The translations under genes and the position numbers were made by a program. Positions 7,001 through 36,400 of a stretch of 64,000 bases of DNA are shown here, piece after piece (the first letter of the stretch is position 1; every line of letters begins with the position of its first letter). The notes under the pieces are model-generated. The model ran no database searches. It was not told where the DNA came from and was given only the letters and a program-made list of their open reading frames with translations. This DNA is from Branchiostoma floridae (Eukaryota; Chordata; Leptocardii; Amphioxiformes; Branchiostomatidae), in the NCBI RefSeq assembly GCF_000003815.2, contig NC_049985.1:7070066-7134065 (forward strand). Direction: 5' to 3'.

Positions 7001-8072
7001 TTTGAAATGTCACTAGGTCGAAACATAATGCATTTTGGCTATCTTACTTCCTGGTCTTGCCTGAAGGTATTCCTACCGTAATGTCTATTGCATTTCCCTA
7101 CATATTTTGCCCCTTTTTGCTCAACTTTGAGGCAAACATATAATATGGCAATCTTCTTTAAACCCCCATAAAATTTAATACCTAATGTAAAGGGATTCTA
7201 AAAATTAGTAAAATATACATTCTGACCATAATTAAAGGACTATCTCGGGAGTCAGGATTATAGTAGTATTACATTTATGTGGTTAAGAGATGATAATACA
7301 TCTTGCAGAGAAATATTCAAATCTACTCTCGAAAAGTTACTGTAAATGCGAGAAATTTTTGCAGCGGTTTAATGTTTGCGGTTTTCGCGGTGGCCACTTC
7401 ACCGCAAACTTAAAAGTAATAAAACCACCTCGAACATTTTTCCATGGCAGTAAGAGACTACGGTGAATGGTGCTACCGCAAANNNNNNNNNNNNNNNNNN
7501 NNNNNNNNNNNNNNNNNNNNNNNNNNNNNNNNNNNNNNNNNNNNNNNNNNNNNNNNNNNNNNNNNNNNNNNNNNNNNNNNNNAAATGCATTTAGTGATTT
7601 CAGTAATTATGGACTTGCCCTTGTCCTAGATCATGTGCAGGGTGGTACCTTAGAAACATAAAATAAACACATATTTTCTTCTCTTCTCTTCTAATTGGGC
7701 GAATCACTTATTATTCATTGCACAGTACGTTTTAAAGCATGTGACTAATGGCAGGTAAATCTGACCAGTAATATTCTAAGCTGATCACCACAGGTGTCGC
7801 CTGGTTCGTAATGGGTTGTCTGACCCGTGACCAACATTTTCAGTGCAACAACTGGTCCGACTACAGTCAGCCATGAAACGTACACACACGTCGGAGACTC
7901 AGATTACAATCGTGACAAAACCACGGCACAAAAGATCGTGAAACTCCGTGTACTTACACACGCACATCTCCACCACGTAAGCGTAGTACGACCAGAGCAC
8001 GATGAGCGTGATGAAAACGACTGGAAGCCATTTCATCAGGCGGATGCAGAAGTTCAGCACCGGGTTCGACAT
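1010..8072 (-). CDS. ZDHHC20: DHHC palmitoyltransferase, ZDHHC2/15/20 clade (3' end missing)
   Basis: Integral membrane protein S-acyltransferase that attaches palmitate to cysteines of client proteins at the Golgi or plasma membrane (family knowledge). Ten coding exons were read by hand: 8072-7958, 5515-5489, 5301-5207, 4944-4824, 4403-4334, 3935-3903, 3461-3341, 2926-2788, 2514-2388 and 1117-1010. All have AG acceptors and GT donors, and phases agree, giving 318 residues. The start MSNPVLNF is followed by a first membrane segment ([20 protein letters not shown]), and a second lies near residues 44-66. The Cys-rich domain is at about 121-170, with the catalytic D149-H-H-C152 in KMDHHCPW. Two more membrane segments follow at about 165-190 and 206-234, then the conserved TTxE motif (TTLE, 238-241) and the NLKEVFG motif near 264-270. 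VVEMCV, VVYLV and YCE resemble human ZDHHC20 most, but ZDHHC2 or ZDHHC15 orthology is possible. The reading ends in mid-codon at 1010; the variable tail was not found. Confidence 0.9.
3903..3935 (-). other. 33-nt coding microexon carrying the DHHC catalytic motif
   Basis: A TTTTACAG acceptor and a GTAAGT donor enclose 33 nt that read [12 protein letters not shown] when joined to flanking half codons. The exon therefore carries the whole active-site motif. Skipping it keeps the downstream frame (33 is a multiple of 3) but removes the catalytic cysteine. Confidence 0.9.
5489..5515 (-). other. 27-nt coding microexon of the DHHC gene
   Basis: A TTTGCAG acceptor and a GTACGT donor enclose 27 nt. 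With the single base left by exon 1, the exon reads FAITSLPQK and joins in frame to VVYLVLYH of the next exon. It encodes the short loop between membrane segments 1 and 2, a place where human paralogues vary in length. Confidence 0.85.
5569..5778. mobile_element. MITE-like element with 34-bp inverted ends
   Basis: The left arm 5589-5622 (starts TAATCTCCAAACAGATCC) and the right arm 5736-5769 are reverse complements with a handful of mismatches. The 10-bp direct repeat ATGTAATTAC stands outside both arms, at 5569-5578 and 5769-5778, and may be a target-site duplication. There is no open frame inside. This suggests a non-autonomous DNA transposon; the superfamily is unknown. Confidence 0.75.
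6298..6480. repeat. Dispersed repeat, diverged second copy near 63745
   Basis: The segment shares several ordered blocks with about 63745-63930, including TTTGTACxG and a stretch like TCTTTAACxTGCTGAAxGTG followed by a CTATCC block and ACACTGTA. Both copies lie in noncoding DNA and have no open frame. It is probably a short interspersed element or transposon remnant; the class was not determined. Confidence 0.5.
6664..7112. repeat. Tandem duplication within DHHC intron 1
   Basis: Two diverged copies begin with TCTGATCATGCATCCCCACA (about 6669 and 6856). Both continue through ATGGATATCAAATTCATCC, then ACTTCCTGGTCTT. The second copy has an insertion of about 70 nt before ACTTCCTGG. The duplication is wholly intronic. 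Confidence 0.75.
7337..7482. repeat. TACTGTAAATG family repeat, cut by the assembly gap
   Basis: The segment opens with TTACTGTAAATGCG and continues with GCGGTTTTCGCGGTGG and a TTTTTCCATGGCAGTA block. These words recur in the same order at 24532-24690. The right end is lost in the N run. It is probably a copy of the same short inverted-repeat element seen whole at 61961-62138. Confidence 0.65.
7483..7582. other. Assembly gap of 100 N
   Basis: There are exactly 100 consecutive Ns, the usual placeholder for a gap of unknown size. It lies in DHHC intron 1 and interrupts a repeat, which probably caused the break. Confidence 0.95.
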
Positions 8073-12400: not shown

Positions 12401-15400
12401 GTAAATCTCTTTTTCCTATGTATTGACTTTTATAAGGATGTCTACTGCCTTTCTTACAAGTATTCTCTCTCCAGTAACAGCATTAACAAGAGTAGACCCA
12501 TTATGATTCTAGACATGAAGTCACTCATGAAAACCTGTAGTAATCGCCTTGTGCACCATGGAGACGGCAATGCCTCTCTGCTGACCCACAAAAGCTGCAT
12601 TATGTTCAGTCGTTACATTCTTCAAGAAAATGCTGGTGAAAAGGGTTGGCCTTCAACAGACCTTCTTGTGTGCTTTAAGATTAAAGACTACAATGCTAGT
12701 CAAAAACACTGAGATTAGTATCATGTATGATATACATGTAGTATGATTGTGCACTACTTGGGGTTGAGATGCATATTATGTCCTTCTATTCACCCCGAAC
12801 TTGAAATAGAATTTCAGCAAAAATCCACTTGTTATTTGTAAACTTCATGTCAAAATGATATGTTCTATTGTTGGCCATAGTCCTTATAATGAAAGGTATG
12901 CAACTTAAAAACATATCTGTTCTAGTATAATACACGGGCTACCTGACTATTGTGATCATTATTTGTGGTTGTTCTTTTTTTTGTTCTCACCAACCCAAGC
13001 ATTTAGAATATCTTGTCTACAGTAGCCACCTCTAATGTGGTCATTGTTTTCAAGTCCTTTGAGCCATCACAATGAACATATTTGACTGTATTGTGAAAAT
13101 AGGTCAGCCAGTGTGTTGGACAAACATGTTTTTCTAGTACCCAATCGGAGGTAATTATTTGTGACAACAAAAAACAGGTTACACAGGTCCTCACTGTGCC
13201 CTGCTGTGTCAGTAACTGAGGCCATTTTTAAATCTCCCCTAGGTCCTTAGATTTATTTTAAAAATCTACCAGACTTTGAGGCAAAAAAGTACAACATTAG
13301 CTTTAGATGTTATACCTTACTGAAAGCTTTAACAGCAACATTTACCACTAAATATAAGTGGGTATAATACCTTGTTGTTATTCTGCCATACAATTGTAAA
13401 ATTTTCACCATTTGGTATGTATATGTCAGAGGCTTTAAGTTTAAGTACTATTCATTGTTTGGTCATTAAAGATATTCTCATTGTATATGGATCTGACTAT
13501 TGGGAAATCAACTCACATTTTCAACAAGAGTTCATCATATTGTGGTCACTGACAGCAGTTCAGAATTGATTATGACATATTACATCTATTGATGAATTGC
13601 TAATACTGTATAACCTTTAGGGCAGACTTTGCTGATAAAATACACATTTGTATATTATTTTTGTGTCATGTTTTAGGTGTCAATATCTTGAATTATAACT
13701 ATGCATGATCTGCACTATCACTAGTATCAGATAATGTAGTAAAAGAAAAATGCGATTTGAATGCAATTTTAACTATCCATTTTTAACATTTTTGATAGTA
13801 TAATGCTGGTTTGATTGCACTATGTAATATTACCTAACATAACATGTAGTGAACTATCAATCTTTCTTTACTCAAAGAATGAAATATTGTATTTGCTTGT
13901 TTGTTTGTATATGTGTGTGAGTGTGTGTTTCCATGATTTATATATTTAGTCCTTCTATTTCTGTCTGCAAGGGTCAACAAAAAGCTAAAGGAATGTTTGC
14001 TTGCTTGGGGTGTAGGGGTTCCGTTTATATGTGTATGTTTGGGTAAGGGTAGTACCCTTACCCAAACATACACATATAACCGGACCGTACGAAGGCTGCC
14101 ATATATCTGATTGCCATGGTTTTCTGACATGTTTGTTTGTTTGAACCTTTGTTTATTCACAAAATCTCAAATCAACCTGCAGGCTGCTTGTCTTTGAGGT
14201 CAGGAGGAAAGAGGCAAGGGTCAAACAAAGTATATAAAATAGATACAGTTTACATCATTTAAAGTCCTAATGAGTGTTAAAAGGCTATAAGCCCATACAC
14301 AAATTTTTTATATACATGGTACAAAATGAATAATAGTGAGAACTGCTACATATTAAATTCGAGTCTGTTCATGTTTCCCCCCAGATCCCAAGTTTGACCT
14401 GAAGCATCGCGACCAGCCGCCCCGGCTGGACCTGTACGATTTCAAGACCACGGTGGACATGAAGGTTGCCATACCGACCCCGCCCAAGTCCACCTGGGAG
14501 CTGGACGTGACTCCGGCCATCTCCACCCAGAAGTGGCTGACCATGTACGGGCTCAAGAAGAACAAACTGACCATGGGTCAGATTCTCCCGGCCATCGGCT
14601 TCAAGCACAGTGACGGTAAGATGTTTTGTTTTTCTTCGATTTGCAAAACCAATAAACTACCTGTAGGCATAACATGTAAGCTGTTTTGTACAGTAAGCAC
14701 AAGCTGGGTAAAATTAGACTTGAAGGTTTCATCCACTCAAACTAGAATGGACTCTTAAATGATCCACGAGGATATCCATAACTGAAGCCACATGTAGGTA
14801 TAATGTAGGTACTCATTTCAAGTGAGGAAATACATGCAAAGTGCCTTTCCCAAAGGCACAGCATTGCGGCCTGCTGGGTATTAAAAGCCAGAACCATTAG
14901 ATTCTAAGTTAACAACTCTAAACAGAAGACCACCTTGCTAGTTTTCACCTGACAACCATTCTCCTTGCACGAAGGCTTGCAGTTTCACTTGGAAAGAGTG
15001 CAAAGGAATATTCACTGTCTTGATATACCAAAGATGGAGGGATGCAATTAGAACAAGTGCCGAGAACAAAATGGGCAGATTTAAGGTCAATTTGATGGTC
15101 CAGAAATATTGTGTCGCACAAATCCCTTACATTTCATGTAGAGTTGCTTTTGCTTCCTCAATATATAACCTGTACATACATTTCAGCACCAGGGACAGGC
15201 ACACATGACTACCATATGGTGTATCATGCAAAATTTTCTGCAAATGTTTTATAATACAGTTGACAACTCGTGACAGCAGTGAAAGCTATGTTCTTTTGTT
15301 TTACCAGTCCATACTGCCTTGAACCTCTCAGTGTAAATGTCAGACATCCATTATTTACCATATTTGTACTGAAATGTCATTTCTTGTGACATCACAGACT

Positions 15401-18400
15401 GCAGTGGTTAGTGCCATATGGGTAGAGTTCAAAGCCAACCTTATCCCTTGGGGTACAAACCCCCATAATGCTGGCTAAAGTAAGCTTTCATAGTGGCAGG
15501 AAATGAAAGTGGCTCTAAAAGCTGTTTTGCTTGTTGTCTGCAGCTTGCGTGTAGTCAGGCTTTCTCTAGCTTTAAATTGTTTCGATACTACTCATTGTTT
15601 GGGAGCCCATGTTGTTGATATTTATTATCAAATCTGTCAGTTTTAGCTGATGAAAATACAGTTCCGTCCATTTTTTGTCACAAAGTTTGAATTTTTTTGT
15701 TTGGATGAATGGGGCGACATTTTTTTGTCCATTTAGGGTGACAGATTCTGGATGTGATGATGCATAGTACAGCAAAAGAAAAATAATGATTATCCTCAAA
15801 AGAAATATTCAGAATCAAAGTTATATATAGTACTTAGTTTACAGGGTTATCAAGTGGCTTTTGATGCTTTTATATCAAAGGCTTTGCCTACCAAAGATGA
15901 TATCTAACATAATATGAAATACATGTACTACAGTTTATTGATATAAAAACCTGTTTAAGTAGCCCACTAACAAAAGTGTTCTACCTTACTACAGACTATG
16001 ACTATTCACTGAAGAAGCCAGTGAGTTCCAGATACGGAGAGGGGTTATTCCAGAGGTTCCCAAGAAAAGACGGCAAAACATTCAACGTAAGTCAATTTCA
16101 AGTTTCCCTTAACATAAAATGGATACCTTTTCTCCTTTCAGATTGCAAAGAAAAATTACATTTATTATGCCATAAATCTAATACTTGTAACTTTTGTGTC
16201 ATGTGTTTTTGTTTACGATACAAATCATAAGTTTGTGAAGTATATCATCACAAAACAAGGCTTAGAAGCTTTAGAAGTGTGCTGAATTGTGTATTTTGAT
16301 ACCTGTATCTGTAATCTATAGCCAGTATTACCACCCTTGGACATGACACAACAGCTTTGCAAGCACACAGCACGACAGCAGCTGGTTATAATACACTTAA
16401 TGACCTGTCATACCTTATTTTCCTCAAGTATTCCTTAAAACTATATATATGTGTAACTGAGTTGTATAATTATACATGTCGATATAGGTAACTGTAGGCA
16501 AAGACAAGTTGAAACAGATCGAGAGCAGACTGATGCAGGCCATCACCCTGTACAAGAGGAGACTGGAGTGGTTAACGTCCGAGAGTCGGCGTACGTTCGG
16601 AGTCATCGAGGAACACTGCGTGGTTCTTGTGTTGGACATCAAGACGATGGACCCGGCGGAGTTTGAAATCTGCAGGGACATCATCAGAAGAGTTGTCAAT
16701 GAACAGATAGCGAATGTCGCCAAGTTCAACCTCATCAGGTGAGACAAAATCTTGTGTTGTGTATTTGAAAGGACACACCTTACAGTTTACTGTTTCTCAT
16801 ATTTAAAAGTAAGGAAGTCGACGTACAGGGTAATACCGCACTGTCATGGTTATACCACCTGTTGCATGAGGGGTGACATACCCTTTCTTTTGCTGATACA
16901 AGACGGGGTGCGCCAGGTATCCCGTCTTGGTGATTGATGTAAATGTATGTGGAAAATTAACATGACAGCAGAGTATTGGGGGGGGGGGGGGATAGACCAG
17001 TCCCATAGCCTTACCCATCTGTCAGAACATAGGAATGCCACTCTCTTGTTGGTTATACCGCTAGTTGCTACTCTGTCATCTGAATTTGTAGTGGTGATGA
17101 ACGTTTCTTTGAGAAAATTTGTTTGTTTCGGTAAACCACATTGCCACTCATTGTACTAACTTATCTAAACATTTGCTGTGTGAATGTATCAGAGCCCAGG
17201 AAGACCTGAGTGTGTGGCAGCCAGGAGGAGCCATCCCGTACTCTGCAGAGAGCAGGCTGTCTGCGCTGACGTGGCTGGAGCAGATCGACAGGATGGCGGG
17301 GAGGTCCAAGACTTCCACTGTCGAGTCTGTCATCAGGGCCATGAACGATCCTAACGTGAGTACAATGAAATGATTTATATCTTATCCTTTACGGTATTGT
17401 CAAGAAATAATGAGTGTATTATCGTGCAACATTCAAAGCAGACAAGGAAATGTCTTTTATAGAAATGGTTCGTATGTATACCTTAATTAATCAACGTCAT
17501 TTCCACTCGATTGATGCTATGTAACATACACAGTGTCAAAATCTGTTCTGTTGGTCAATTGTTACAGCTTGATCAAATATACTGTCAATCTGTTTGAGAT
17601 GGTTTTGATTTTGCCGTCACTTCTCCACTGCAAATTCATGACCCAAAGAAATATCCATGTACATCATATAACTACACTGTATTTGGCCCAGGTGCAAAAT
17701 TCAACCCGTCCTAACCCAAAACGAACACTCCCAAAACTGACTTTTGCCTTCTCTTTCAAATGAAAGTCCCCAGATAAATCATGCTCGATAAATGAATGAA
17801 TCTGTACTGTACCTTTGTTGATTGAGTAATTTTCTATTCCCCTGGTGCAGGCGGAGGCAGTGTACCTGTTCTATGAGGGTGACCTGTCCAACGACACCCA
17901 GCACCTCCTGAGGCAGAAGCTGGTGGGGCATCGCTACCCTCTCCACATCGTCTCCTTCAACGCAACCAGTGAGCACACCACCCGCTTCCTCAGGGACCTC
18001 ACCAAACTCACAGGAGGGAGGTATGTTGTACCTGTGTTAAACAATCTCTTGGTGCAAGTTCCTGATGGGGCCTCCTCTCAAAAGCTTGGGGTTATACACC
18101 TCTAACTCAAGAGAACTAACTCACACAGAATTTCTGATAGGAGTTCAAGATTCTTAAATACTGTAACGTCAAGAGTAAACATTAAAAAAACTGGCAATAA
18201 CCGGTCCGTTTTAGCAAATTATGCATTACCTTAAATGAAAAGGAACCTTGAACCCTTGAAAACTGGCTCAGGCCAAAGAGATACTTGTGTGTAAATCAAG
18301 GCTAAATAAAGGTTGAAAAAAAGGATTAGCTGCTGTTTCCAATTCTTCTGACTTAGAGGTGTTGGCCATTAAGCTTCTTGGGCCTGGTCAGTGGAATTGT

Positions 18401-21400
18401 TCAAGTTTACGTGTGTCTGACTATTTACTGGAATACACCAGAGTACACATAAATAAGGATGAGGATATTTAGACGAGTAGATATCGCAGGTTGCTATATT
18501 GGCATAAAATGCATAAAGTATTGTGTACATTTTGAACTTACCAATGCTGTTCTACCATAGGTTTCATGCATTCACACTTCGGGAGGGCAGGACACCGATT
18601 GGTGGAGTTCCGCCTGGTGCAGGGGTGCGACCAGAGGTCATTGAACTGTTTGAGGAGCTGGAGGAGGCCAGGAACACCCTAGCAGAGGTGCAGGTGCTGA
18701 TTCAAGAGGCTCCTGATCCCAAGACACAGATGGGTATGTTTTACTTATACTGTAGAATTACTATTGCTGTGGTTTTATTTCATGGTAATAAGGAATATGG
18801 CATAAGATGAATTCCTTCTTCATAATTTGAGCCTCACTCTAAACAAATCAACATCAACTTTCATTGTTCCATCAGGTGGTACATGAGAAAAAGTGCAAAC
18901 TATTTCCAGCGATTTAAACAGATGTACAAATGCAGCATTTATATACACATCAGGTATTTCGGTGTTAAAGACAATAATAAAAGTCCTATATAACTTTTTT
19001 GTGATGTGACAGTATTATGGCACTCAGTAGAATTATGAGAGTTGATGTTACATAACCTAAACCACAGTAATTGTACTTTTTGAAAACTGGAATATTACAT
19101 TGAATCTTAACTAAAAATGATTTCAAAGAGGGACATCCACAGCAGAATAGAATCAGCACAGTATAGGCCTTGTCCTTGGTGCTGAATGACCACCTAATAC
19201 CACTGTTATTGTATCAATGCCTTCCCATGGAAGCTGAAGCATACAGGAGAGGCAAAGAAAGAGGTGAGGGGGTGCAAGGTTACCTCTGTGTCATAATCTA
19301 ATCCTTCCAGTGTCATGATTATTATTATAAACTATATTAATCATATTTCATAACACTAAAGAGGTGATAGAGTACAATTTTATAATACTTAAGGGGTGAA
19401 GGAGCATCATAATCACAAAATGTATTCATCATTTTCTATTATACTAAATAATTATTATTTTCCCCCAATGCCTTCCAATTGTAGTGGAGGCACGAAAAAA
19501 TAAGGGAAATGGTGAGAAAACATTAATTACCTACTGCATGTTTGTACTGATTTTATAAACTTTTAGACATGAAGAAATCTTTATTGACACGACAAAAGTG
19601 CAACTTACAGTACAACTAAACAGACATATACAAATATCTATAGGTATGAATAAGTCAACATATTGGGTCTAGCATGTCATTTACTCAATTGGTTCTATGG
19701 TATAAACATTCTTGGATATATTTGGCTATTTGTACACAGTAGGGGTTATCGCCTCCCGGAATGAACTGGGATGGATACCCTAGTAAGATAACAGTTAATG
19801 ACACTTGAAACTGTCCCATTATTTATAATATTTTAGGATTGTACCATTTGCCCTTCATCATTATTTCCAATATCAGAGGAGTCAGCCAAGAGTCCTTTAC
19901 CATAAGCTCAATTGGATTCATACATCAAACCAGGAATAGAAGTGCTCTTGGCGTGCCCAATGAGGTTTGAAAAGTGCACGTTGCCTCGGGCATATGTTAA
20001 CAACAGTGGGTTAAAACATGTGCCAGTTATATATAGCTGCAATTTCATTTTTGAAAATGATTGATACTGGATTGACTTATCTATCAGCAGAAAGTATTTG
20101 TACATGTAGGTTATTGACCCTGCTGCCTATAATAGAGCTTCAATCTGCAGTAGATTATTCAATTGGAAAGCTCATAATCTATTTGGACTCTAATATTCTT
20201 CTCTTCAATATCCCCCTTAAAACATTTTTAGGTTTTGAGTGTGTATCCTTACTTCAGCAAAGTCCTTAGGACAGTCCCAAAAGCATGTATTACGTGCCAA
20301 GTTACATCTGCTTTTGACATGCAAGCTTTAGCTCCAGAGCCGGCGTGCTTCCCAGATGAATGGGAATCTACGCTAATGACAGAGTGCCTGCTTGTTACCC
20401 ATGGCAACTGTCAATCACCCTGTATAACCCTGATTAACTCCTGGGGTAGGCTGTCAATGTAGTATATGTTGACATCCATTGAACATGGCAGCCAAGAAAA
20501 CAGTCAGATGGCTTGATCAAGGTGAAAGAAGGCAGTTTTCCTATATTTAGTAAGCTTTATCACCTCCATGAAAAATTGAGGTATAGTTTTAGGCAGTGTC
20601 TGTCTGTAGATGTGTGTATGTTTTCCCAGAATAGTTACTTAAGATCCTATCAATGGATTGTTATGATATTTGCTATGTTGGTTGTGGTTAGAAAGGCAAA
20701 GGTCATGGTTGATTTTGGGTCCCCTCAGTTTTTCTTGGTACTGCAGTATAACTTATGGTTTTGCTATGTTTGTCTTAGACACGCTGTATAATCATGTAGC
20801 TGGCATTCCTGGCAAGAAGCCAATTGGCAACAGGGATTTCCATTTTTCAGTACAGATTACCATTCATACCTCCTGCATACGATGCAGTCTTTCCATGACC
20901 TTATCGATGCATTATCAACTGAAGCATGCTCAGATGTTTGATCAGGATTTTTCTCTGTTTATTTCAGCCACAGTGAAGCCAAGGCCTAAAGTGAAGAGTG
21001 AACAGTACATGGGATCAAAAGAGTGGTTAGAGGTAAGATTATGAATGTTACATTTGGCCTGATTCATTCTATACTTTACCATATGTCAGATGAAACTTGT
21101 GTTGCAGTTCTGTTTTTTTTTTCACGTGCAATTTGTGTTCCAAACATACTCCTGGCATTCTGCATAAAGATTGTTTTCAGACATTGCTTTCAATTCATTT
21201 GGTACATGTGCAATGTACTGGCAGTTAATTTGTGTAGATCACATTATTTTCCCTCTGTTGAACTTCTTTATAAGATAATGGTCCTATGAACTCTTATGAA
21301 CTCCATTGCAAGCTTGTTTGAAAAAGACATTGCCTGTGTGTGAGTCTGAAATGTTACCATATATCAATAATGGATATTCTATTGATTTTCATTGTTGGCA

Positions 21401-24400
21401 GATTCATACCTGAAAGTGAATTATATAAAAATCCTTTGCCTTGGCTTGGCCTTTGACAAAAGACCAACCAATGACCACTCTTACTATATTCAATAGCTAT
21501 GAATAATTGATTAGTTGTAGATTTGATGTTCTTATCTCGGAGTAGATCTTATAGTACATGTATATAAAGGAACATAGCTGAGACCTCAGGTTGCAAATGG
21601 GTGCATGCCATCACATGGAAGCAATAGGCAGCCCCAATTCAGTACCCTGGTTCTGTTAGCTAACTTCATTTGAATACCACCGCAAAAGATTCAGAATCTC
21701 CACATTGAATACTGAGGCCATACCAAATCAATGTGTTGGCTTATGGAAGGAAGACATTAAAACAGAACCCAAGGGCCAGCTTTATGCTAAAGTGCACACT
21801 ATTTTCTTTGGTGAATTTTTTTCTCAGATTAATGTTGCCAGATTCATTTTTCTTCTACTCTTCTAATATCAACATGGCTAATGATTTTTGATGGCTTGTT
21901 TGCTAGAATTATGGCATTGATGCAAGGAGAATGGACTTCTATGATGTGATCTCCGGCTGCTGCTTCAAACACAGTGATGGGGTGGTGGAGCTGAAGAAGA
22001 AACCAGGAGACCCCCACTCACAAACTGATGCTGTAAGTTGGAGGTCATTTTCAAGAATCAATAAAAAAACTTCTATATCTTGTTGCATATATTCTTGATA
22101 CCCTTGTGTGCCTGTGGAATGATCATGAGTCCCATGATGATAGTCGTAAATTTTGTTTCCCAGCATTCCCAGATATTTATCATTAGATGTTGGGATTACA
22201 CTGATTGAATACAGTTAAACCTGTCCTGGTCACCAAGAACCACCTGACTATTGTGGCCAATTTTTGGCAGCCCCTTAGACATGAGTCCTATGATGATGGA
22301 ATGAAAGCTATGCACTTTGGCTGTTGTATATAATGTTGGTTGTTGTGTTATGATGTCCTGATGCTCATTAGTATCCCACTGCTGCCACCATGTTGTGCTC
22401 TGTGTGTCCTAATGCCCATTCCTAGCCAGTTAACCACACAGACATCTTTGTGAGCTGACTCAAAATCTTGTATTCTTCACATTTCATGAGGTGTTGTATA
22501 GTCATAAAAGTTATCTAGGTATAATGCAGGTTACTTATAAGTATTACAAGTTACCTTTGTCACAGTCAATTTGCATTGATATTAAACTTAAATAACCACT
22601 AAGGGGACAATTGATATGCCTGATTAGAAGTATGGATGCTGTCTGACTTAGATATAGAGCAGTAGTTATCATGATGTGATTATATCTTAACAGTTTTGTG
22701 ATCATGTCTGTTATATCCCCATGTTCCAGAGCTTGCATGGATGCATAGTTTCAACATGTCGTGTAATCTCAATTTTTCCCTTTTGGTGACTAGAGCATAT
22801 ACAATGATTCAAAACAGAATATGAATTAAAGCCTCACAGTGTGACAAAGATTAAAAACTTCTTTTGTTCTCTTTTTGTTGAAGAAAGTTTAGCATTGTAC
22901 TATTCTTTTGTTCCTATTTTTGTAAGGTGTGTTTCTATTTTTCAGCAAAATTCTTAGACATTTTGTGCACCGTTTATACTAACCGCAGAAAAAAGCACAT
23001 TTCAAGCAAATGCTTTGATGAATGCTGAATGTGTACTGTTGATGTTTTAGGACACGAAAAACAAGCTGATCAATGCAAAGTACTGCGACCGTTTTGCCCA
23101 CACCAACTGGAAGGATGGGTCAGTGGTACATGTACACGTCACCCCTGAGTTCCACAGGCACTATGAGCAGAGAGTCAGCACAGTGGTACAACAGGTCCAG
23201 AGAAGGTAACGTTCAATCTTATTGTGTGTCTGACAAATAACAAAGAGAAGGACATTCAATTGTCTCCATCCTAAAGGTGCAATGGATGTTTTGCCTGCCG
23301 ATGTCAAAGAGAAAATAAGCTGTCATTTTTTGAGATCTAGTGGAAACAATTTTCGAAACAAATAAGATATGTTTGCCTGGAAAACATGGTAGTCTAATTT
23401 TTGCAATTAAAATTGCTACTTTGCTTATTTCAGTTATAGCAAACCACATAATTATCTTTAATGACAACGTGCAGTATTGAAACTATAAAATTTCACACAG
23501 CGTGCTTAATATTGAAGAGGTTACTTACCAGACGTTTTCAGAATTCAGAGACCTCATACATGTACTTTATTTAGTGCTTCTGTAAAGTTTAGTCAAATGA
23601 CTTCTACATATCTATACATCATGGTGATGTTTGCCTTGAACGTTGTCACAAGTCACATGTATAAAATTCTCATCATTTTTCAAATAGGAATTATAGCATA
23701 GTGATATTAATTGTGTAAATTGTGTTTCCAGGATTGACTGGTTGCGGGAGGGCAGTCGTGAGCTGTTTGGTACTGTGATAGAGGAACAGGTGTACCTGCT
23801 GATTGACACCTCTGAGTCCATGAGGGATAGGCTCCCCTTTGTCAAGGAGAAGCTTTTCCAACTCATGCAGGTAAAGACATACCCTTTTGCTATTCATTTG
23901 CATCTTCTGTTGATAGAACTGAAAATCTTGAAACTCTTCAAGGAAATTTCCATCACAAAGTCATAACACTACAAATGTCTCCTTTCTGTGACTACTCTAC
24001 TACAGATATTCTGTAATACTCCAAAAATCTCCTTTTTCTTCTTTTTGGAAAATGAAAACAAGGGTGAATAAAATGGATATTTTACAGTCATCATTTTTCT
24101 CTTGAGAGCTGTTTAACAAAGTGAAGCAGTATAAAATAAATTCAGTGGTTGTTTTGTTATAGTGATCCAAAACAGCTACAGTTATTAGAAACATTCTGCA
24201 GCTGCAGTTAACAGAAAGCAATTATATTTCTGATTTGTAACTCTAATCTCATTTTCATAGGAACAATTGAGACACAAAGCCAAGTTCAACATCGTAAAAT
24301 TCGACACGCGGGCCATCCCCTGGCGCGACCGCCTGGCGGATGTGAACGAACAGAACCTGGAGAACGCGTGGCAGTGGGTGAAGGGTCTGACGGCAGGAGG

Positions 24401-27400
24401 AACCACAAACACACTCGCTGCCATCAGACTAGCACTGGCTGACCACAACACACACGCTATCTACCTGTTAACGGATGGTAGGCCTGATCAGGTAGGGACA
24501 ATTTGTTTATTTGCTTTTTTACTTGTTTGTGTTACTGTAAATGCAGAAACTTTTGCGGTGGTTTAATGTTCACGGTTTTTGCGGTGGTCGCATCAAAGCG
24601 AACTTAAAACCACCGCAAATATTTTTCCATGGCAGTATGGTGCTACCGCGAACTTAAAACCACTGCGAAAAGTCCTTTTTCCCGCTACAGTGAAATTGCC
24701 AACAAAGGGCAGTCCCGATCAGCTTGAGACAATGTGTTGATTTGCTAATGATTGTTTGTGCCATCTAACTATCAACAGATAGCAGGCCTGACTAAAAAAA
24801 TTGGAATGCTACCCAGTAAATCATGTACATACAAAACAGCAGGAAGGATAAATAGTAGGTTTAAGTGGCAAACATATTTAGGAGTGCTGCCAGCTTCTTT
24901 AATTTGGTAAGCTGAAAAAATATGAATTGCATCTGAGAAGCAAACAGGAGACACTTAAGATGTCTTGTGTTTCCAGCTGCCCAAGACAATCTTGGCGCAG
25001 GTGCAGCTGCACCCCCAGGTGCCCATCCACACCATCTCCTTCAACTGTGATGACATCGAGGCCAACCGCTTCCTGGCTCAGATGTCACATGACACCAACG
25101 GGAGATACCACTACTACTCCACTGATGGGAGGGATCCGGAGGGACCGGAACCTTTTGAGGTCAGAGATTCTTCAGATTTTTTTTAACGAAATTGTTCAGA
25201 GCAAGGTCATTAGACCACTTCAAGGCAATGAACCAAGAAGTTGGAAAGAATTGTACATGGAAATAGCAGTGGGTTGAGGTCAGATTGAGGTCTTCATTAT
25301 CTTGAGATTTAGATTAGGATTAGGATTAGAAGGACCAAAGAATTTCTGTAAAGTCTACTCTGATTTCTGCTCTTGAGATGTTTGTCATGTATTAACTTGA
25401 CTCTTCTTTTGCTCTCTTCATGCTACTGAAAAGTTTCAGACAAAAGGAAAAGTGGCCTTTGATAAGGAGCCAGTGGTACAGAAACAATTGATTTCTTGCA
25501 CTTGTAGTTTACACAATCACAATTTACAAACTATTTACAGTGATGAATGGATATCATTTTCCTTTTCTTAAGGCACAGTATTAATCATCTAAAACAGAGA
25601 CTTGGAACTCTAACACAGAACCCTGTCTTCTTCCCAAACAATCCTGTTCACATTGTAAGCCACAAACACACCCATAACAACTTATTGTCACCATGGTGCT
25701 GAAGTACAGGCTTTCCTTTCCGTGGTGCTGAAATCACTATGTTTGTAACGCTTGCCTTCCTTTACATTGTATTTGCTGTAGGTCATGTTATGGATGACAG
25801 AATTATGGCCAAAATCCAAAATTGAATCTAATGGCTTATAATGCCTTTTCTCCTATACCATGTTCTGTGTGTTCAGTCATTTGTTCAACTGTCCTGTTTG
25901 TTCATAGTTCATAATGAAAGCAACTTTTTTGCCCAGCTCTATTTTCTCGCACACTTGCATGAGTTTTGGGGACCCCAGAGGACATCATCTATGTAATCAA
26001 ATCAGCATGGGCTGATGTTAAAAACATATGCTGTACTAATACACTGCCTGTTCTCCTGTGCTATTCCACAGAGTGAGGATATCCAGCTCCTGAAGCAGGA
26101 GATAGAACGGGCCAACAGTGACCTGGCCAAGGTGGCCCAGCTCAGGGACGAGTGTGCAATGTTGGACTGGAAGAACTCAGGCAGCAAGGCTATCAGGTCA
26201 GAGGAAGTCATGTTATGTTAACCTTCACAGAAGGGAAGCATATTGTTCTTTTTTTAACAGGTTTATTAAATGTAAGGCCATTTGACCAGTATTAGGCAAT
26301 GAAGTAAGTTGATGGATGGTGGAAATCACTATGCCATTAGTTAAACTTAATTTTTGAAGGCTGGAAGATTGTATACAGTAGGAAAACAACTGTCATCAAG
26401 AAGGTGACATTTTTTTCCATATTGCAGTAGAGAGAAAATAGAGTATTTTCAGTGGTTTTAAGTTCACCGTAACACTATAGTCAAATACTGTACAGTAATG
26501 AAAATTTCAGTTTAAAATTTATGGTGGTCACCACCACAACTACAAACATAAACCTGCCACAAAAATGATAAGAATTACAGTACTCGCTAACACATGTGCC
26601 ATTGTACACAGGAACCAGAGACCAGACTCAGCCTCCACCAGCTCCAGTAAGTCCCACTCCCGGTCCTCCTCAGGCCCCACCCCTCCCTCCACCCATCGCC
26701 CCTCCTCCGCCCCCTCCCACCGCAGACCCATGACAGCCCTGGGGTTCTCCCACACCACCCCCAGCCACACGCCCAGGTCCACCCCCCGCCCCAGGACGGC
26801 CAACGGTTACCGCAGTCCGGCGCACGCCGCTCACAGCCACGCCCGACACACGCCGCGTAGGCCCAGGAGTAGGACCTCCGACCTTCATAAGAAACCTCTC
26901 TTTGCAGGTAGGTTTTCTTTTTTGTTATAAAACATGTTTGCTATCTATGCAGTGTGAAAAGTATATATAATTTATCTTGCAGATGCAGAATACAGTGAAT
27001 GATAATGTCAAAAGGTGCTTAGGTCAAAAGTTCTGGAAAGTTCCCCAAAAGGTTATCAAACTTAAGGTGGCCTCAATCCTGTTTACAATTTTCTGCTGCA
27101 TGATGATCTGTTGCCTTATGGGAGTGAGTGGAAAAGCTGCATTAGACAGAATCAGCAAAAAATTCACAATTATGATTAATGAAGCAAGAAATACAAAATA
27201 TCCTGTATTTTACAAAGGTATGAGATCGTCAATTTCTTGTTCAATCTTGTCTCTCTCCAGGCCAAACCAAGACCAGCCTGTTACGGAGCATGAGTGCGAT
27301 GTCCATGACTCCCCGGGGGTTCAGCACATCAGGAAACACATGGATGCTGCCAGAGACGAAGGAACTCTTCGAGAGGCAGTGGGTCAAGTACAAGGAATCC

Positions 27401-30400
27401 CTGGATGGTCAGTAACTATGAAATATGTGTAGTCAACAATTTATCAACAGTTAATTGAGCTAAACAGCTTGCATAGTTATTGAATTTGTTACTGATTAGT
27501 TTTAGATTGTATTTTGCTGATGTTAAGATGACTATTGTTGACATTCATTTGAAATTCTAATACTTTCATTGTGATAACAGCAAGTAATTCTTTGTTTTTA
27601 TGTAAGACTAATGACATATTATTATTGTTGTCAACAGAAGCAGACAGAATACTGGACAAGAGGAAAAAGAAAAGGAAAGCAATAATACCATCACAGTAAG
27701 TGTTACATATCCACATTGTTTAGTTTGCTTTTAATGCCACTGGCTTTTGACTGGGAAAAGTTGGTGTTGATTTGGGTTCCCTAGCAACTTTTCTTGGACT
27801 TGCAGGTATGATTTTGTCAGAAACTTCGAAATATGATGACTCAACAAGGGATGAATGAATTTCTTTGGGATTCTTCAAATGTTCTTTCAAGAGCTTATTA
27901 ATAGGCTGTTATTTTCTTTCTTATTCTAATGAATTCTGCCTTGTGTCTACAGCCCACTGGACATGTCCTCCAAAAAGTGGCTGAAGAAGCACGGCCTGGT
28001 GGCCAAGAAACTGACCATCATGGATGCTCTTGCTCCAACGGCCATTCCGCACAAAGCAAAATATGTGCCCATTCTGGACAAGCATGTGGTGTCAAAGGTC
28101 TTTGATGAGGTAATGAAAGTTTCTATTTCCTTTGTAAGCAAAGTGCAATCAACATCATCAATGTAAGAGAAATGGTAGTAGTCAGACAGAACTCTAGTAA
28201 GTAGTCTTTGATAGGTTGCCTTCATCCCTTAGCATAAAGTATACTTTCCAACACAGTGGGCAAATGACAGCACCAGTTTTTTTATCGGAATGAACACTCT
28301 AGCTCATTATGCACATAGAACATAAGTGCCATCATGAATCATAAGTTGCAGAATGTTAATGGGGTTACTTACCATCCCACGTTTCAACTCTTTTTCTCCA
28401 AAACCCTCCAGTCAATTTGTACTGAGCTAGTACAAACTGCATAAGACTTGGATGTAGTCTTCCTCTATTTCATTAGGAAAATGATACATGTTTTACCCAT
28501 ATGGTGTAAGGCAACAATTTAAGTTTTCACATGTATAAACTTTAAGTAATACAATTCAACCTGCGATGTAGTGATTATAATGATCAAATAAACCATTCAT
28601 TCATATATTCATATTGTTCCCCTCAGTCCCTCCCCATAGCCCATGCCTCCAGCTCAGGAAAGCTGCGTCTGGTGAACCCTCAGGCTGTGGACCTGGTAGG
28701 CTATGAAGAGAGACTACAGAAGGCTGTGGACTCATATAAGAAGTGAGGAAGATATAATATCTAATGTGAAACTGATCGTAATGATTGTATTTCTGTATGT
28801 GGCAACATGTCTACAGTTGGGATTTTTTCAAAATGCTGCAAAATGGCTTGGCATTATACATGCCACTATGAGTATGTGTTTGTCCAAGACATTCTATTGA
28901 GAACTGCTTCTAACATAAGCAATATACATGTATTACACATTCTCCAAAAACCTGTTTCTAAAATACTTTTCTTGTATATCGTTTTAGGAGATTAGACATG
29001 ATTGTGTGGAGGAATCTGTCACAAGAGGAAAGAGACCAGTAAGTATTTTTTTTTGCTTATCCAAGTTTCTGTGTCTTTTTTTAGTTATTAGTAATACATA
29101 ATTTATTACTCAAGTGCTAAGTAACTTGCAAATGAGGAACTCTTAACAAATTCTGTTTTTAGTAAATCGATCAAGATGCATAAATTTCCCACATATGAAT
29201 TCCCTTCAATTGTCCTTTCAGGGTATCATTGAGAATCTCAGATTTGATAATACCCTAGTAAGACTTGTGATGTCGGCAATGGGTCAAAGTTTGTTGAAAG
29301 TCAACATGCTCCCCTGAAAAACTTTCATGCTAGGTCCATACTTGTACTGACTACGCGTAACATTCCAGGTTTGACAGTGAGGAAGCGGTGTCCTTTCTGG
29401 AGAACCGCCACGCCATGATGCAGGCGCTGGACCGGTTAGGCTGGCCCCTCCCCCAGCAGGACATCCTCCTCCTGGAGGATGAGATCGCGCGGGGTCAGAA
29501 ATACCTCCGACAATCCACCGACCTGAGGAAGGCCGCGGAGAAACTGCACCAATCAACCGAGGAGGAGGATGATGATGACGACACAGCGTCCGAGACGTCC
29601 GGGGTGGAGGCAGGAGACGAGACAGAACGCAGCAGGACTGAGTTTGAGGTACAGAAGGAAACATAACTTTCTTACTTCATGAACTTCAAGATAACAGTCA
29701 TCATCATCCGTACTCATGATCCATACTCATCACAAAATTTTGTCATGCAGAAACTTTAAATATGAGTTTGAGGTACAGAAGGAAACCTAACTTTCTTACA
29801 TCATCAAGATAACAGTCATCATCATCCACACACATGTACTCATCACAAAAATTTGTCATGCAGTAAATGTAAACATGGGTATCTAAACTGCTCTGTACCT
29901 GTGAGCTGATTAAGGGTGTTGCATGACTAGTATGATAATTTGATAATATTGCTGCACAGGCAGTATTTGCTATATATCAAACTCAGATCAAACAAGTGAA
30001 AAGATGGTAGAAAATCATTGCTTATCTTAAGATGTGACTCAAAGAATATTTAATACAAAATATGTGTCTGCTCTATGCAGAAGTTACTGCATAGTCATGA
30101 CATTACCTTATGACATGGGGACTGGTCAGGGCTGTCTCCAGAAACTGTCTGTCTGTCCTGGAGCAGAATTTCGATTATTGGGATCGAAATAAATTTGCCT
30201 TGCCCGTCCAAAATATTGGAAATTGTTGAGGTGAAAATATATTTTTATTAGCTTTTTAAATTAATAAAATGACTCACAGATCTATTAATGAAAATTAGCA
30301 ATATTGGCCTTTACCTTTGCAATACTCCAAATATTGATTATGGTTACTGCCTTCCAAGGCCTGAAATAGACCCCAATGTGCCCCCCCCCCCCAATAAGTG

Positions 30401-33400
30401 GGAGTGAAAGCTACCGGGTAAAGCTGGAGACAGCCCTAGAACAGGGTCTCCATCACAGGATTTTGAGATTTTTGGCCTGTCCTTTGTGAAGAAGATTTCT
30501 TTCTCCAAGTGGTACAACTAAATTGTGCTGCTATTTAGAACATAGTATGTTGTAGTGTATAAGAAGCTTGCATGATGCATGGCAGTATTTTTTAGACATG
30601 AGCATTTTACTGAATTTACTCAAGTGACTTAGTAAAAAAACTGCAAGGAGAATCAGAAACCATTTCATTCGCTAGTTTTGCATTTGAATATGTCATATCT
30701 TATAAAATATCTGCTCGCAAAGTTTTGTCGCCTAAAATTTAGAACGACCTTTGTTCTGCTTGCAATAATGCATGCTAGTCTGTCATCATTGTGACCATTC
30801 AAACTTGTAAAAGCATGTTTTCTAAAAACATAATGCATGTGGAACAATTCTCTGTGCTACATGTACATTTTGTACTAACAATCTGCTGCTAATATGTACT
30901 ACATATTTACTATTAGGTAAAATAAAAGGATGTACAGAGTGTGGGAGTCCTTCTCTTCATTGTGTTGCAGCAAAAATAATTTTGAAAGAAGAAAGCAAGT
31001 AGTCATGCTCTTTTTCATATAATTTTGGTTCTTAAATCTTTGCCAGCAAGGTTTTTTTTTTAGTTCTTTTCATTTTTCAGTTCTTTTCGGTTTAAAGATG
31101 ATATATTCAATTAGTTCATTCAGAACAGGGTAACCTTGGTTATTACGTTAGCACTTTGTTCCTTTGTCAAGAGTCATTTTATATTGTTAGGAGAGCAGCA
31201 GTTATTTTAGTACAGGCATCAACCTAAAGCGTACTGACGCTGCCATTTGGATACGTATGGGGCTAGGCAGTAGGTTAAATGTGTGATATTTGAAGGAAAG
31301 CCTCAGAATTAACTGCTAAGCCTTGTACAGACTGGCCATGATCAACTATTAGCAGCTTGCAAGGTTGTAAGCTGCATCACTTAAAGACGGTTACTAAGAA
31401 ACGGTTGCTAAGCAACCTGAGGGGAAACAAATGTTTGCAGTATCAGTCAGGAAATGAGGCATATGATTGTTGCATTAGCGCTATTGTGATTCCCCCATTA
31501 GTGCTGTGTGACTGAACACATGCCAAACAAAGAACTCTAGAGTAAAGCATATACGCATTTAGTAGCACAAAAGGATTGAATGAATGCAAGTTACTTTATG
31601 GATTTGTATAGGGAAATATTGAGATACTTACATGATTATTATTGGTTCATATCTTTCTTATTCTGCAGTGAAATTGAACAAACTTTTTCATGAAAATGAT
31701 CTTTTAGAAAATAACCCCTACTTCTGCCATTTTAAGAAAGTACCCCTTTAAAGAAAGGGTTAGTGAATTAATGTGTGTTGATGCTAACGGGGAGTTCAGA
31801 CATTTGTGTTCAGATTTTTAAAAGTGCAATACAAGACCAGGGGAAGGTAAGAGAGTTCTATTGGTGCACAGAGACTATGGGGCTATTGCACCTGCACAAT
31901 ATGTTGTGCATGGTACACAGGACATATTCAGCAGGCATGAAGCATTACTGACATTTGATGTTGTTTCAACTATGATGACTTTCTTTGTTGAAAAAATTGT
32001 ATCAAAAAAGCACAATATCATACTACAACCACAAAATAAACCACCATGTGAGTGCAGCTTACTCACAAATGAAAGTTTACTGTATAAAAGAAACAAATTG
32101 CATGTTTTGAGAAACCTACATTATGGTCAGAATATGTACTTTTTATAAATAAATGGTGCAATTATTTTTGTGATACAACAAATAAAGCATGCCAAACTCT
32201 TAGAATATACATTTATGAAAGTGTATTGATTTGATAAAAAGAAAACCGAATACAGAAGAAAAATTAATTCACAAAAAAGATCATCAATGCTGCTTGAAAT
32301 GTTTTCATATGCATGATCACCTTCACTTACTGCCGATATGCTGTCCCAGCATGTATCACTCACCCCTTCTTTTGTCTGTCTTATTGCAGGGTTTGGGCAG
32401 TGTCTTGGAAGGGAGTGGCGGCAGTGCAGAGAAGAGCACACCTGGTTCTGGCAAGCACAGAGTAAAGAAAGTGCTGGATAAACTTAAAGGGCACAAGGTC
32501 ATCGCAAGGAAAGAAGAAGACGGTTTTTATTACCCTGGTAAGAGAAGATTGGTATCATTTTAGTTTTAGAGGGAAATAATTATGTAATTTCTAAATCCTT
32601 ATGATATTATGTAACTATCATAATGACTAGTTTCGTAGCAAAACTATCATTGATTTTATGATTCTGTACTTTGACTTTTCTAGATTCTCTTCCAGAAATG
32701 TCTTGGTTCTTTTCATGTATCTGTTCTCCTTGTTGTTATTCCTTGCTATAACATTGCTATCGCCACATGTATCAAATACATTCGTCAGTCTATTTCTCTT
32801 GTATATGAACAAATGCGGCAATCTGGCAAAAATGTATCATGTCTTGCATGCATGGACTCAAAGCTTTCTGTGTGCTCTCTTTACCTGCTTGTGCTTCTGT
32901 GGACGATCTAATGTTAAACCTCCCAGCTAGAGTACGTGGTAAGTGGAACAGAAAACTTGAATTTGTGCACCATGTATGGACATCCATAACACAATGTAGA
33001 AACAATGTAGAAATTGTGAAGCTAGAATGTAGTTGAATGGGAAAATGTCAAAACATGTAGTCATTAGAAATGTACACAAAGACTGTTCCAGGATTATCCT
33101 AGCTATGATAACAAAAGGCAAGAATGATTTTTGAGGATCCAAATGTATGGCAATGAGGATAATGGCCAAGCACTACAAATTGAACAGAAAATGACAATGA
33201 CACTATATCCCTTTGCACTGCATGTTGGGTTTCTATGTTTAAGATTCCTGCAAACTGAATGTCGTTTATTTTGAACTTACAGGGATTGTAGTCAAGTGTC
33301 CAAACTCCAGACATGCGATCGTTGATTACCATGGCAATGGAAGGCAGCTCACGCCCACCAGATTCGTCATCCCTATGGGCGGGGCCAGGGCGTGTCCTGA

Positions 33401-36400
33401 GCTAAGGGTATGTTATAGTTTATTTCTGAGTTCTGATTTGTTATATTCAGAAAGAATGGAATGTATCCTGTAAGAGGCTTGAATGATTAGATAATGCATG
33501 TGATCAAAAGTGCTAAGTGATTTGCAAAGTAAGACTTGTTCATCTTTCTGAATGTATCTTCTGGCACTGGTCAGTTTAGATGGTGACATAAAGCAGGTTG
33601 CCCTGTGTATGAGGGAGCTTCAGGAAGTAGCCGAAGGCATAAGACTTTTGCACATAAAGGAACCCAACACACTTATTGAGAAATTAAAATTGCTGGGCTA
33701 ACAATGGATCTTTGAAAAGATCAGCCAGGCAGCCAGCATGCCAGCCAGGCAACATGAAACCTGGTCAAATAAAAATAAACAAACAAACAAACAAACATGA
33801 GCCACAGCAAAGCCACATTACACTACTAGCTAGCTACTTAAAAAAGAATCATACTTCATCTCAGTTGAGGATGATTGCTTTACCTTTTTATTTACCAACA
33901 AGTTTTGCTCAACAGTTGATAACACTTTCAGCACCAAGGACAGATACAGTATTTTCTCTCCAAATCAAATTTCAGAATTTTACAAAAGTTTTTCTCCCTT
34001 TTGTAGGTTGGAGATTTTGTGCTCGTGAAGACCACATCAGAAGAGGACCTGGAGTGTTGGGTACCAGGGATCGTACAGATGACACCCCGCAGGAGGGAGG
34101 CTCAACTTAAGTTCTACACCATCCTGCAGTTTGACAAGAAAAGGGTAGGTGGAGCTTCTGATGAAAGTAACATCCTTTGTCTTTGACATTAACTCCATGT
34201 ATGAATACCAATAACAATTCTTATTTTCTCATTCATGTACATATATTTAAAATTCAGATTTTATTATGTGACAATAACAGATGCTATCAGGCTTTATAGC
34301 AATCTGGAAAAAAAGGTCAAATGTAATGTTGGTATGGTCTTTGAAATCTGGAATTTACTGTGTGTTTTATTCTTTTGCTTCTGCAGGTGACCTCTCTAAG
34401 GAAGGGCATCATGAAGATTCCTAAGTCCAGATACGTGTTTGCTTGTCGCTACATCAAGGATGCTCAACAGATCAACTATGAGATGTGAGGATCTAGATTC
34501 TTTATCTTATGAAAATCAGTTAGAAGAAGCATTTTGGGGTATGTGTTAAATGTAGTGATGGTAGATGACATGACATCTAAAAGAGGTTCCTAAATATTTG
34601 AGTACCTTTGCGGAAAGAGAGATATTGTAATCAGTGAGTGTGTCTGTTTGTTTGTTTGTATGTCCTGGTTTGTGTCACAGTTCTTCAATCGGCATTTGAA
34701 TGTTTGTTATGCTGGGGAACAGGAAGTTAGGTCAAGGATACCAGAAAAGTCCCACAGGTGGCTGGAAATGGAGCTTGCCCAAGTCTGCTGGCAGGAAATA
34801 GAGATGGACCAGGTGCAGGATAAGGGTACCTCTGTGGGACTGGGAAGGTTACAGAGCAGCATGGGTAAGGGAGTGAAGTCTGCCATCTCTGATTGCCTTG
34901 TTTTTCTCTTGTTTCCCACACAGTCCCAGTGTAGACATTGTCCAAAGACAAGCCACTCCAGACAAAGCTGAAGACGGAGAGAGGCGACCGAAGTCTGGCC
35001 GGCGCGGGAGACACGCTAACAACGAGGACTCGGGTCACGTGGAGACCAGCAGCTCTGAGATGAGTGGAGAGGAGGAGGAGAAGGGAGACAGTGAGAAGAC
35101 TGGATCAAGTTACTCAGGTTTGGATTTTTTTTTTAACGAGATTGCTGCCTTATGAGAGCGAGTGGGCAAAATACACTAGGTAAAACTGGTGAGAAACTAG
35201 GAATAAACAATCCAATATATCTTTCATGAATATCGTTTATGAATAACCATGCCGGAAAACAAATATAAAAAAAAAGTAGACAAGAGTAGCAGAAAATTGC
35301 AATGAGAATTTGGATATTGCATGCTGAGGGAATTTATCTTAAATTTTCATTTGAAACTATGCAGAGCGAATTTATCTTTTCATTTGAATCCAACAGATAC
35401 TGAGTCGGAGACTACCAAAACGTCTCGGTCCACGGTGCACAGTCGTGAGCGTCTGTCGGACCTGGGCACCTCTCCGTCACCCCACACCACGCCACACGTC
35501 AGCGATGAGAAGATTGAGGAGATTCTGAGCCACCAGAAAACTCTGGAGGACCTGCAGAGGAAACTACAGGAACAGCAGGAGCAGCAGCTGGAGCAGCAGA
35601 AGGTATGGGAACTTCATGTCTTACAGTGTAACAGGCCAGAATGTACCCCTCACCAGAATGTACCCAGGTTCATTCTGACCAGGGGTATATTCTTGTATGC
35701 TACACCTTTACACAAGACATTATGATAAGAGTGGATAACATGTTTGCTGTATTGTCATGAAATTTTAAGGCGGATGTCCGCAGTACTAATAGAATGAAGA
35801 ATGTTACCTTCCAGTTGGCCACTTGTCTACTTGGATCTTATCACATGTTGTTTAAACAGTATGAATGAACCTTAAACTAATAAAAAAAGTCTGAAGATTG
35901 TATTCAGTATCACTGCCCTTTAAATATAATGATGTTCTTTACACAAACAATAAAGGCCATTTAAGTATTTGCAGTTTATGGAAGGCTTTACACTGTAGTT
36001 TCTGTGATCCAGGAATCTGTACTCATGCCAGTGTTTGTCACCCCTTGTTCTCGCCTTGGAAAGTTGCTCCAGAATTGCTATTTGGATTTTTGGGTAAGAT
36101 CAATGGCACAGGTTCCCCCTTCCTGACCCATGAAAAACCCACCCACCCAGTACACCCTCCCATCCATCTAGCAAAACCTACCCACCCATATACATGTAGC
36201 AAACCCACCCACCCATGTACAAGTAGCTAACCCACCCACCCAGCCACTCACCCACATAGCACACCCATAGTCCCACCCACCTTGGCCAAAACGTAGAAAT
36301 GAAAAATGAAAAATAAATTGATGCAAACATTTGACAGACACTCTCTCATTGGTTGAATGACTAATTGCCCTTTTCTCACTGGTTGTTGCTTTATGTGGTG

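Follow-up and report, generated by a model that had tools for sequence, protein, structure and literature searches.

The question raised by this locus is whether a VWA3B-like protein of Branchiostoma floridae is built from three copies of one unit and, if so, how the copies came to differ. A sequence-only reading of the window (the whole 64,000-nucleotide stretch of contig NC_049985.1 that was analysed) had proposed that a cassette of WL module, basic helix, VWA fold and further helix was duplicated twice, after which one VWA was lost. With a probability of about 85%, the gene is best read as an intron-rich, VWA3B-like gene with an old internal triplication, in which a front of about 105 residues occurs three times, followed by a VWA and a tail helix in units 1 and 2, and by 28 residues and a probable tail helix in unit 3.

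VWA3B is poorly understood and has been tied to cilia. A map of the repeat, in which the VWA is intact in one unit, degenerate in another and missing from the third, points to the region where metal and a partner may bind and supplies unit borders for the design of constructs. Among the literature matches listed, which consist of titles and opening abstracts with subscription papers mostly outside, there was no description of an internal repeat or triplication in VWA3A or VWA3B.

Gene Model and Parts

The gene region is intron-rich and AT-rich, and long open frames are scarce in it. Twenty exons, built from reading frames, were placed on the + strand between 14385 and 29648, each with AG before it and GT after it, and when joined they encode 1069 amino acids without a stop. 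The N-terminal end of the protein lies upstream of 14385, and the model starts within the gene. Residue numbers used here are those of the sequence-only reading minus 16, its W66, W395 and W893 being our W50, W379 and W877; its unit ends at 375, 716 and 1085 are our 359, 700 and 1069, which are the ends of exons E6, E14 and E21. The tryptophan codon of unit 1 (14534-14536) lies slightly upstream of the start given there, 14555. The gene model is supported by the unit alignment, which continues unbroken over unrelated exon joins.

Between E6 and E8 (units 1 and 2) there are two phase-neutral candidates for micro-exons, at 19234-19263 and 19485-19511, which were left out of the 1069-residue model. 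Elsewhere in the window, about 7340-7606 translates to X, which indicates unread bases. The parts of the gene are as follows, with the tail helices of units 1 to 3 called T1 to T3.

14519..16607, + strand: unit 1 front (WL module, linker, basic helix), aa 45-147, in E1 (part), E2 and E3 (part); aligns with units 2 and 3
16608..18573, + strand: unit 1 VWA-like region, aa 148-306, with a degenerate metal-site motif; aligns with the unit 2 VWA
16635-16649 and 17872-17883, + strand: unit 1 metal-site remnants DIKTM and YEGD, from the sequence
18631..18711, + strand: unit 1 tail helix, aa 326-352 (T1-T2, 4/2000 shuffles)
21009..23780, + strand: unit 2 front, aa 374-491, in E8 (part), E9, E10 and E11 (part), from alignment and profile
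23781..25120, + strand: unit 2 VWA, aa 492-646, from Pfam VWA_3 and PDB matches
23805-23819 and 24471-24488, + strand: unit 2 metal-site motifs DTSES and TDGRPD, from the sequence
26075..26155, + strand: unit 2 tail helix, aa 661-687, from shuffle and profile tests
26613..27693, + strand: linker joining unit 2 to unit 3, aa 702-867, rich in Ser/Pro/Arg and then in Lys, from the sequence
27963..29372, + strand: unit 3 front (WL module, linker and a basic helix longer by 5 residues), aa 872-977, in E18 (part), E19, E20 and the start of E21
29373..29456, + strand: unit 3 middle, 28 residues in place of a VWA, aa 978-1005
29457..29537, + strand: candidate tail helix of unit 3, aa 1006-1032 (T2-T3, 5/2000 shuffles; T1-T3 not significant)
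32390..34484, + strand: first DUF4537 (Tudor-like) region, Pfam PF15057, E 5.2e-26, its phase matching the end of E21

The Lys-rich linker exon, 27638-27695, matched the Pfam coiled coil of axonemal dynein heavy chains at E 0.0019 and 18.3 bits, below the cutoff of 27; this match is probably an effect of composition.

A Threefold Repeat

The peptides from which the repeat had been proposed were all found on the + strand, in the same order in the three units and within a single frame once the 20 exons are spliced, and all three pairs of units align with scores that none of 2000 shuffles reached. At full length, units 1 and 2 gave a Smith-Waterman score of 284 against a shuffled mean of 33.6, with 82 of 305 aligned residues identical; units 1 and 3 scored 98 (shuffled mean 31.9) and units 2 and 3 scored 76 (33.0). 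The fronts only, compared in the same way, scored 112 (units 1 and 2), 98 (units 1 and 3) and 67 (units 2 and 3), again with 0/2000 shuffles each. In the three-way alignment of the fronts, 29/100 residues are identical between units 1 and 2, 34/101 between units 1 and 3 and 23/100 between units 2 and 3; all three units agree in 13 columns. The common part is longer than first described, at about 105 residues: it begins with the WL module, ends with the basic helix and takes in a conserved linker that joins the two and had gone unremarked.

Profile methods gave a similar picture. A profile of units 1 and 2 scored unit 3 at 23.4 bits (E 7.6e-6), with the best of 5000 shuffles at 12.5, and the HHalign comparison that had been suggested as a check returned unit 3 at a probability of 95.5% and an E-value of 1.6e-8 over 116 columns. 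Leave-one-out profiles of the front scored the left-out unit at 42.2 bits (unit 1), 38.0 bits (unit 2) and 29.5 bits (unit 3); the best of 5000 shuffles reached 8.8, 8.3 and 10.5, respectively, the shuffles with any score numbering 4275, 4638 and 4836 of 5000. When the six-frame fragments of the window, 2147 in number, were searched with the profile of units 1 and 2, the top match beyond those units was the module exon of unit 3 (E 1.3e-4); no fourth unit was found among these fragments, the next match after unit 3 having an E-value of 1.6. All of this evidence comes from a single sequence, that of this B. floridae gene, and on sequence comparison it supports shared descent of the three units over the front of about 105 residues.

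The three-front profile found nothing convincing in Pfam (best E 0.028, DUF2937). Against the PDB, its best match was a lysozyme-type protein at E 0.046, which was taken as chance, and unit 3 alone reached a best E-value of 1.1. It is conceivable, if on balance unlikely, that the front is an undescribed domain that occurs three times and forms the core of the VWA3 family, with the VWA as a later insert that is intact once, worn once and absent once.

VWA Regions and the Metal Site

The metal-site motif known as MIDAS consists of DxSxS plus Thr and Asp residues. The VWA of unit 2 matches Pfam VWA_3 (PF13768) at 69.9 bits and E 3.3e-19, above the gathering score of 27 bits, and has the metal site in the form of DTSES, GTTNT and TDG. 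In the PDB, it matched inter-alpha-trypsin inhibitor heavy chains H1 (E 2.6e-5) and H4 (E 1.7e-4), and its DTSES and LTDG line up with matching stretches of H1.

Neither unit 1 nor unit 3 gave a Pfam match to a VWA (for unit 1, none at E<=1). The corresponding regions of units 1 and 2 nevertheless align with a score of 148 against a shuffled mean of 28.5 (0/2000 shuffles), from which it follows that unit 1 has the same VWA-like region as unit 2. At the metal site, unit 1 reads DIKTM, KTST and YEGD: both serines, whose loss the sequence-only reading had passed over, are replaced and the Asp of the third loop has become Glu, while the Thr of loop two is retained. The proposal of a VWA fold in both units thus holds as far as a common region goes, but unit 1 is without a Pfam match and its metal site is degenerate. 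A MIDAS-type metal site looks intact in unit 2 only, and the unit 1 region is probably a pseudo-VWA with a structural role.

Searched alone against the PDB, the VWA-like region of unit 1 had a best E-value of 0.16 and no believable VWA match. A structure model of exon E3 alone (pLDDT 63.1) placed a helix at the expected first strand of the VWA, and exon E18 modelled together with two aligned exons gave a pLDDT of 56.6; these models of E3 and E18 are of single exons and of low confidence, too poor for a fold search.

Unit 3 and the Origin of the Units

Between front and tail, unit 3 has 28 residues, versus about 155 in units 1 and 2, and a search of six-frame fragments of at least 20 amino acids from the introns of unit 3 gave no VWA remnant at E<=10. 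Both flanking helices had been said to remain in unit 3. The basic helix does, within the aligned front, but the tail helix is weaker than claimed: shuffles reached the observed score in 4/2000 cases for T1-T2 and 5/2000 for T2-T3, but in 1802/2000 for T1-T3, and the profile of T1 and T2 scored T3 at 4.8 bits, matched or beaten by 121/5000 shuffles. In an ungapped scan of the 1069-residue protein, the best non-self match of T2 was T3 (38), with T1 at 33; with the helix cores, T2 preferred T1 (32) over T3 (28), and the T1 core scored 12 with T3, not near the top. Homology of the unit 3 tail helix to the others is no more than suggestive as judged from these scores.

No two units share an intron at the same aligned column and in the same phase. 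The nearest pair, at column 103 in unit 2 and column 102 in unit 3, are both in phase 2 and one codon apart. Shared introns as proof of (recent) duplication were rejected, their positions being different. Since intron positions differ and identity is low, the duplications look old.

Several histories could lie behind these units. A chance likeness of short motifs, with no true repeat, might be argued from the low pairwise identity (23 to 34%) and from the lack of a Pfam family for the front, but it is very improbable given that 0/2000 shuffles reached the score of any of the three unit pairs and 0/5000 that of the profile of units 1 and 2 on unit 3. With a true repeat, the history first proposed, two duplications of a full cassette of front, VWA and helix followed by loss of the VWA from unit 3, is plausible, if somewhat short of an even chance. 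It is favoured by the ungapped scan, in which T2 outside itself matched T3 best, and by the T2-T3 score at 5/2000, and a tail helix after the VWA position suggests that the cassette was once complete. The same history sits less easily with the T1-T3 comparison, which is not significant, with the 121/5000 of the T1 and T2 profile, and with the lack of a VWA remnant in unit 3 and its introns; an hhalign alignment that reached the start of the VWA was too short to count.

A VWA-free ancestral unit, into which a VWA was inserted before units 1 and 2 were duplicated, would make unit 3 the older state. This agrees with a VWA in units 1 and 2 only and with a front that lies above no Pfam cutoff and so may be a separate domain, but the unit 1 front is nearer that of unit 3 (34/101) than that of unit 2 (29/100), in an order that is unrooted, and such an insertion is unlikely, although a serious contender. 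Rather more doubtful is a copying of the front alone into unit 3, in which the tail likeness would be chance between charged helices: the weak tail statistics would follow from it, but T3 lies at the expected place and in the expected order, and only 5/2000 shuffles equal the T2-T3 score. VWA loss and VWA gain are indistinguishable here because three units give no root. Of the two cassette duplications and the later loss first proposed, common descent of the front was borne out, but loss was not singled out, since gain of the VWA before the split of units 1 and 2 fits equally well.

DUF4537 Regions and a Possible Role at the Cilium

The VWA_3 is followed by DUF4537 exons that continue in phase after E21, the arrangement expected of VWA3B, with the status as one gene read from phase and not from a transcript. 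The first DUF4537 region probably belongs to the same gene as the repeat, to judge from the reading frame. Two further DUF4537 stretches lie at 37700-39119 on the same strand (E 5.4e-60 together), and the three regions are interrelated, with scores of 51, 65 and 82 (0/2000 each). The downstream DUF4537 exons were joined by hand, and the continuation from E21 was checked at borders only.

VWA3B was detected in wild-type human respiratory cilia and was undetected in DNAH5-mutant cilia, according to an excerpt of one report, in which its position is given as unknown, it is unclear whether it is a stable part of the axoneme, and a presumed involvement in DNA repair and transcription is cited (PMC12310455). 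VWA3B has also been reported, in an excerpted account, to be tied to neurological disease (PMC10524275). The available text on VWA3A reports an association with motile cilia, although in situ work in chicken described in the same excerpt did not show it in ciliated cells (PMC7331728). In a further excerpt, a VWA3A stop variant is among candidates for bull fertility and is not the most strongly associated variant (PMC8010996).

It is because of these reports on VWA3B and VWA3A (PMC12310455, PMC7331728, PMC8010996, each as excerpted) that the protein is tentatively considered a scaffold associated with cilia, in which one VWA would make a metal-dependent contact, a proposal that we hold at slightly below even odds and in which folds, metal binding, partners and the place at the cilium are all inferred. 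The three helical fronts would form a repeated platform, and the VWA of unit 2 would contact a partner in a metal-dependent manner. The VWA-like part of unit 1, together with unit 3, may have a structural role, and the Tudor-like DUF4537 region could provide a further protein contact.

Comparison with Known Proteins

No VWA3 protein was found in the PDB at E<=1, and no relatives were found among 67 pattern matches in viral contigs or 68 in genome contigs, as is expected for a eukaryotic gene. The inter-alpha-trypsin inhibitor heavy chains are secreted proteins; only their VWA aligns with unit 2, and the repeated front is absent from these chains. VWA3B has a VWA_3 in the middle of the protein and DUF4537 toward the C terminus, which we take to be the order typical of VWA3B, and the gene described here has the same order. 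It differs in that human VWA3B has one DUF4537, whereas three regions lie downstream here. VWA3A likewise has VWA_3-type domains, but with two annotated VWA and no DUF4537, in contrast to the gene here with DUF4537 downstream. The reported link of VWA3A to motile cilia, as excerpted, is a further likeness (PMC7331728). The gene fits a member of a known family, VWA3B-like in its predicted domain order, to which the repeat adds modestly.
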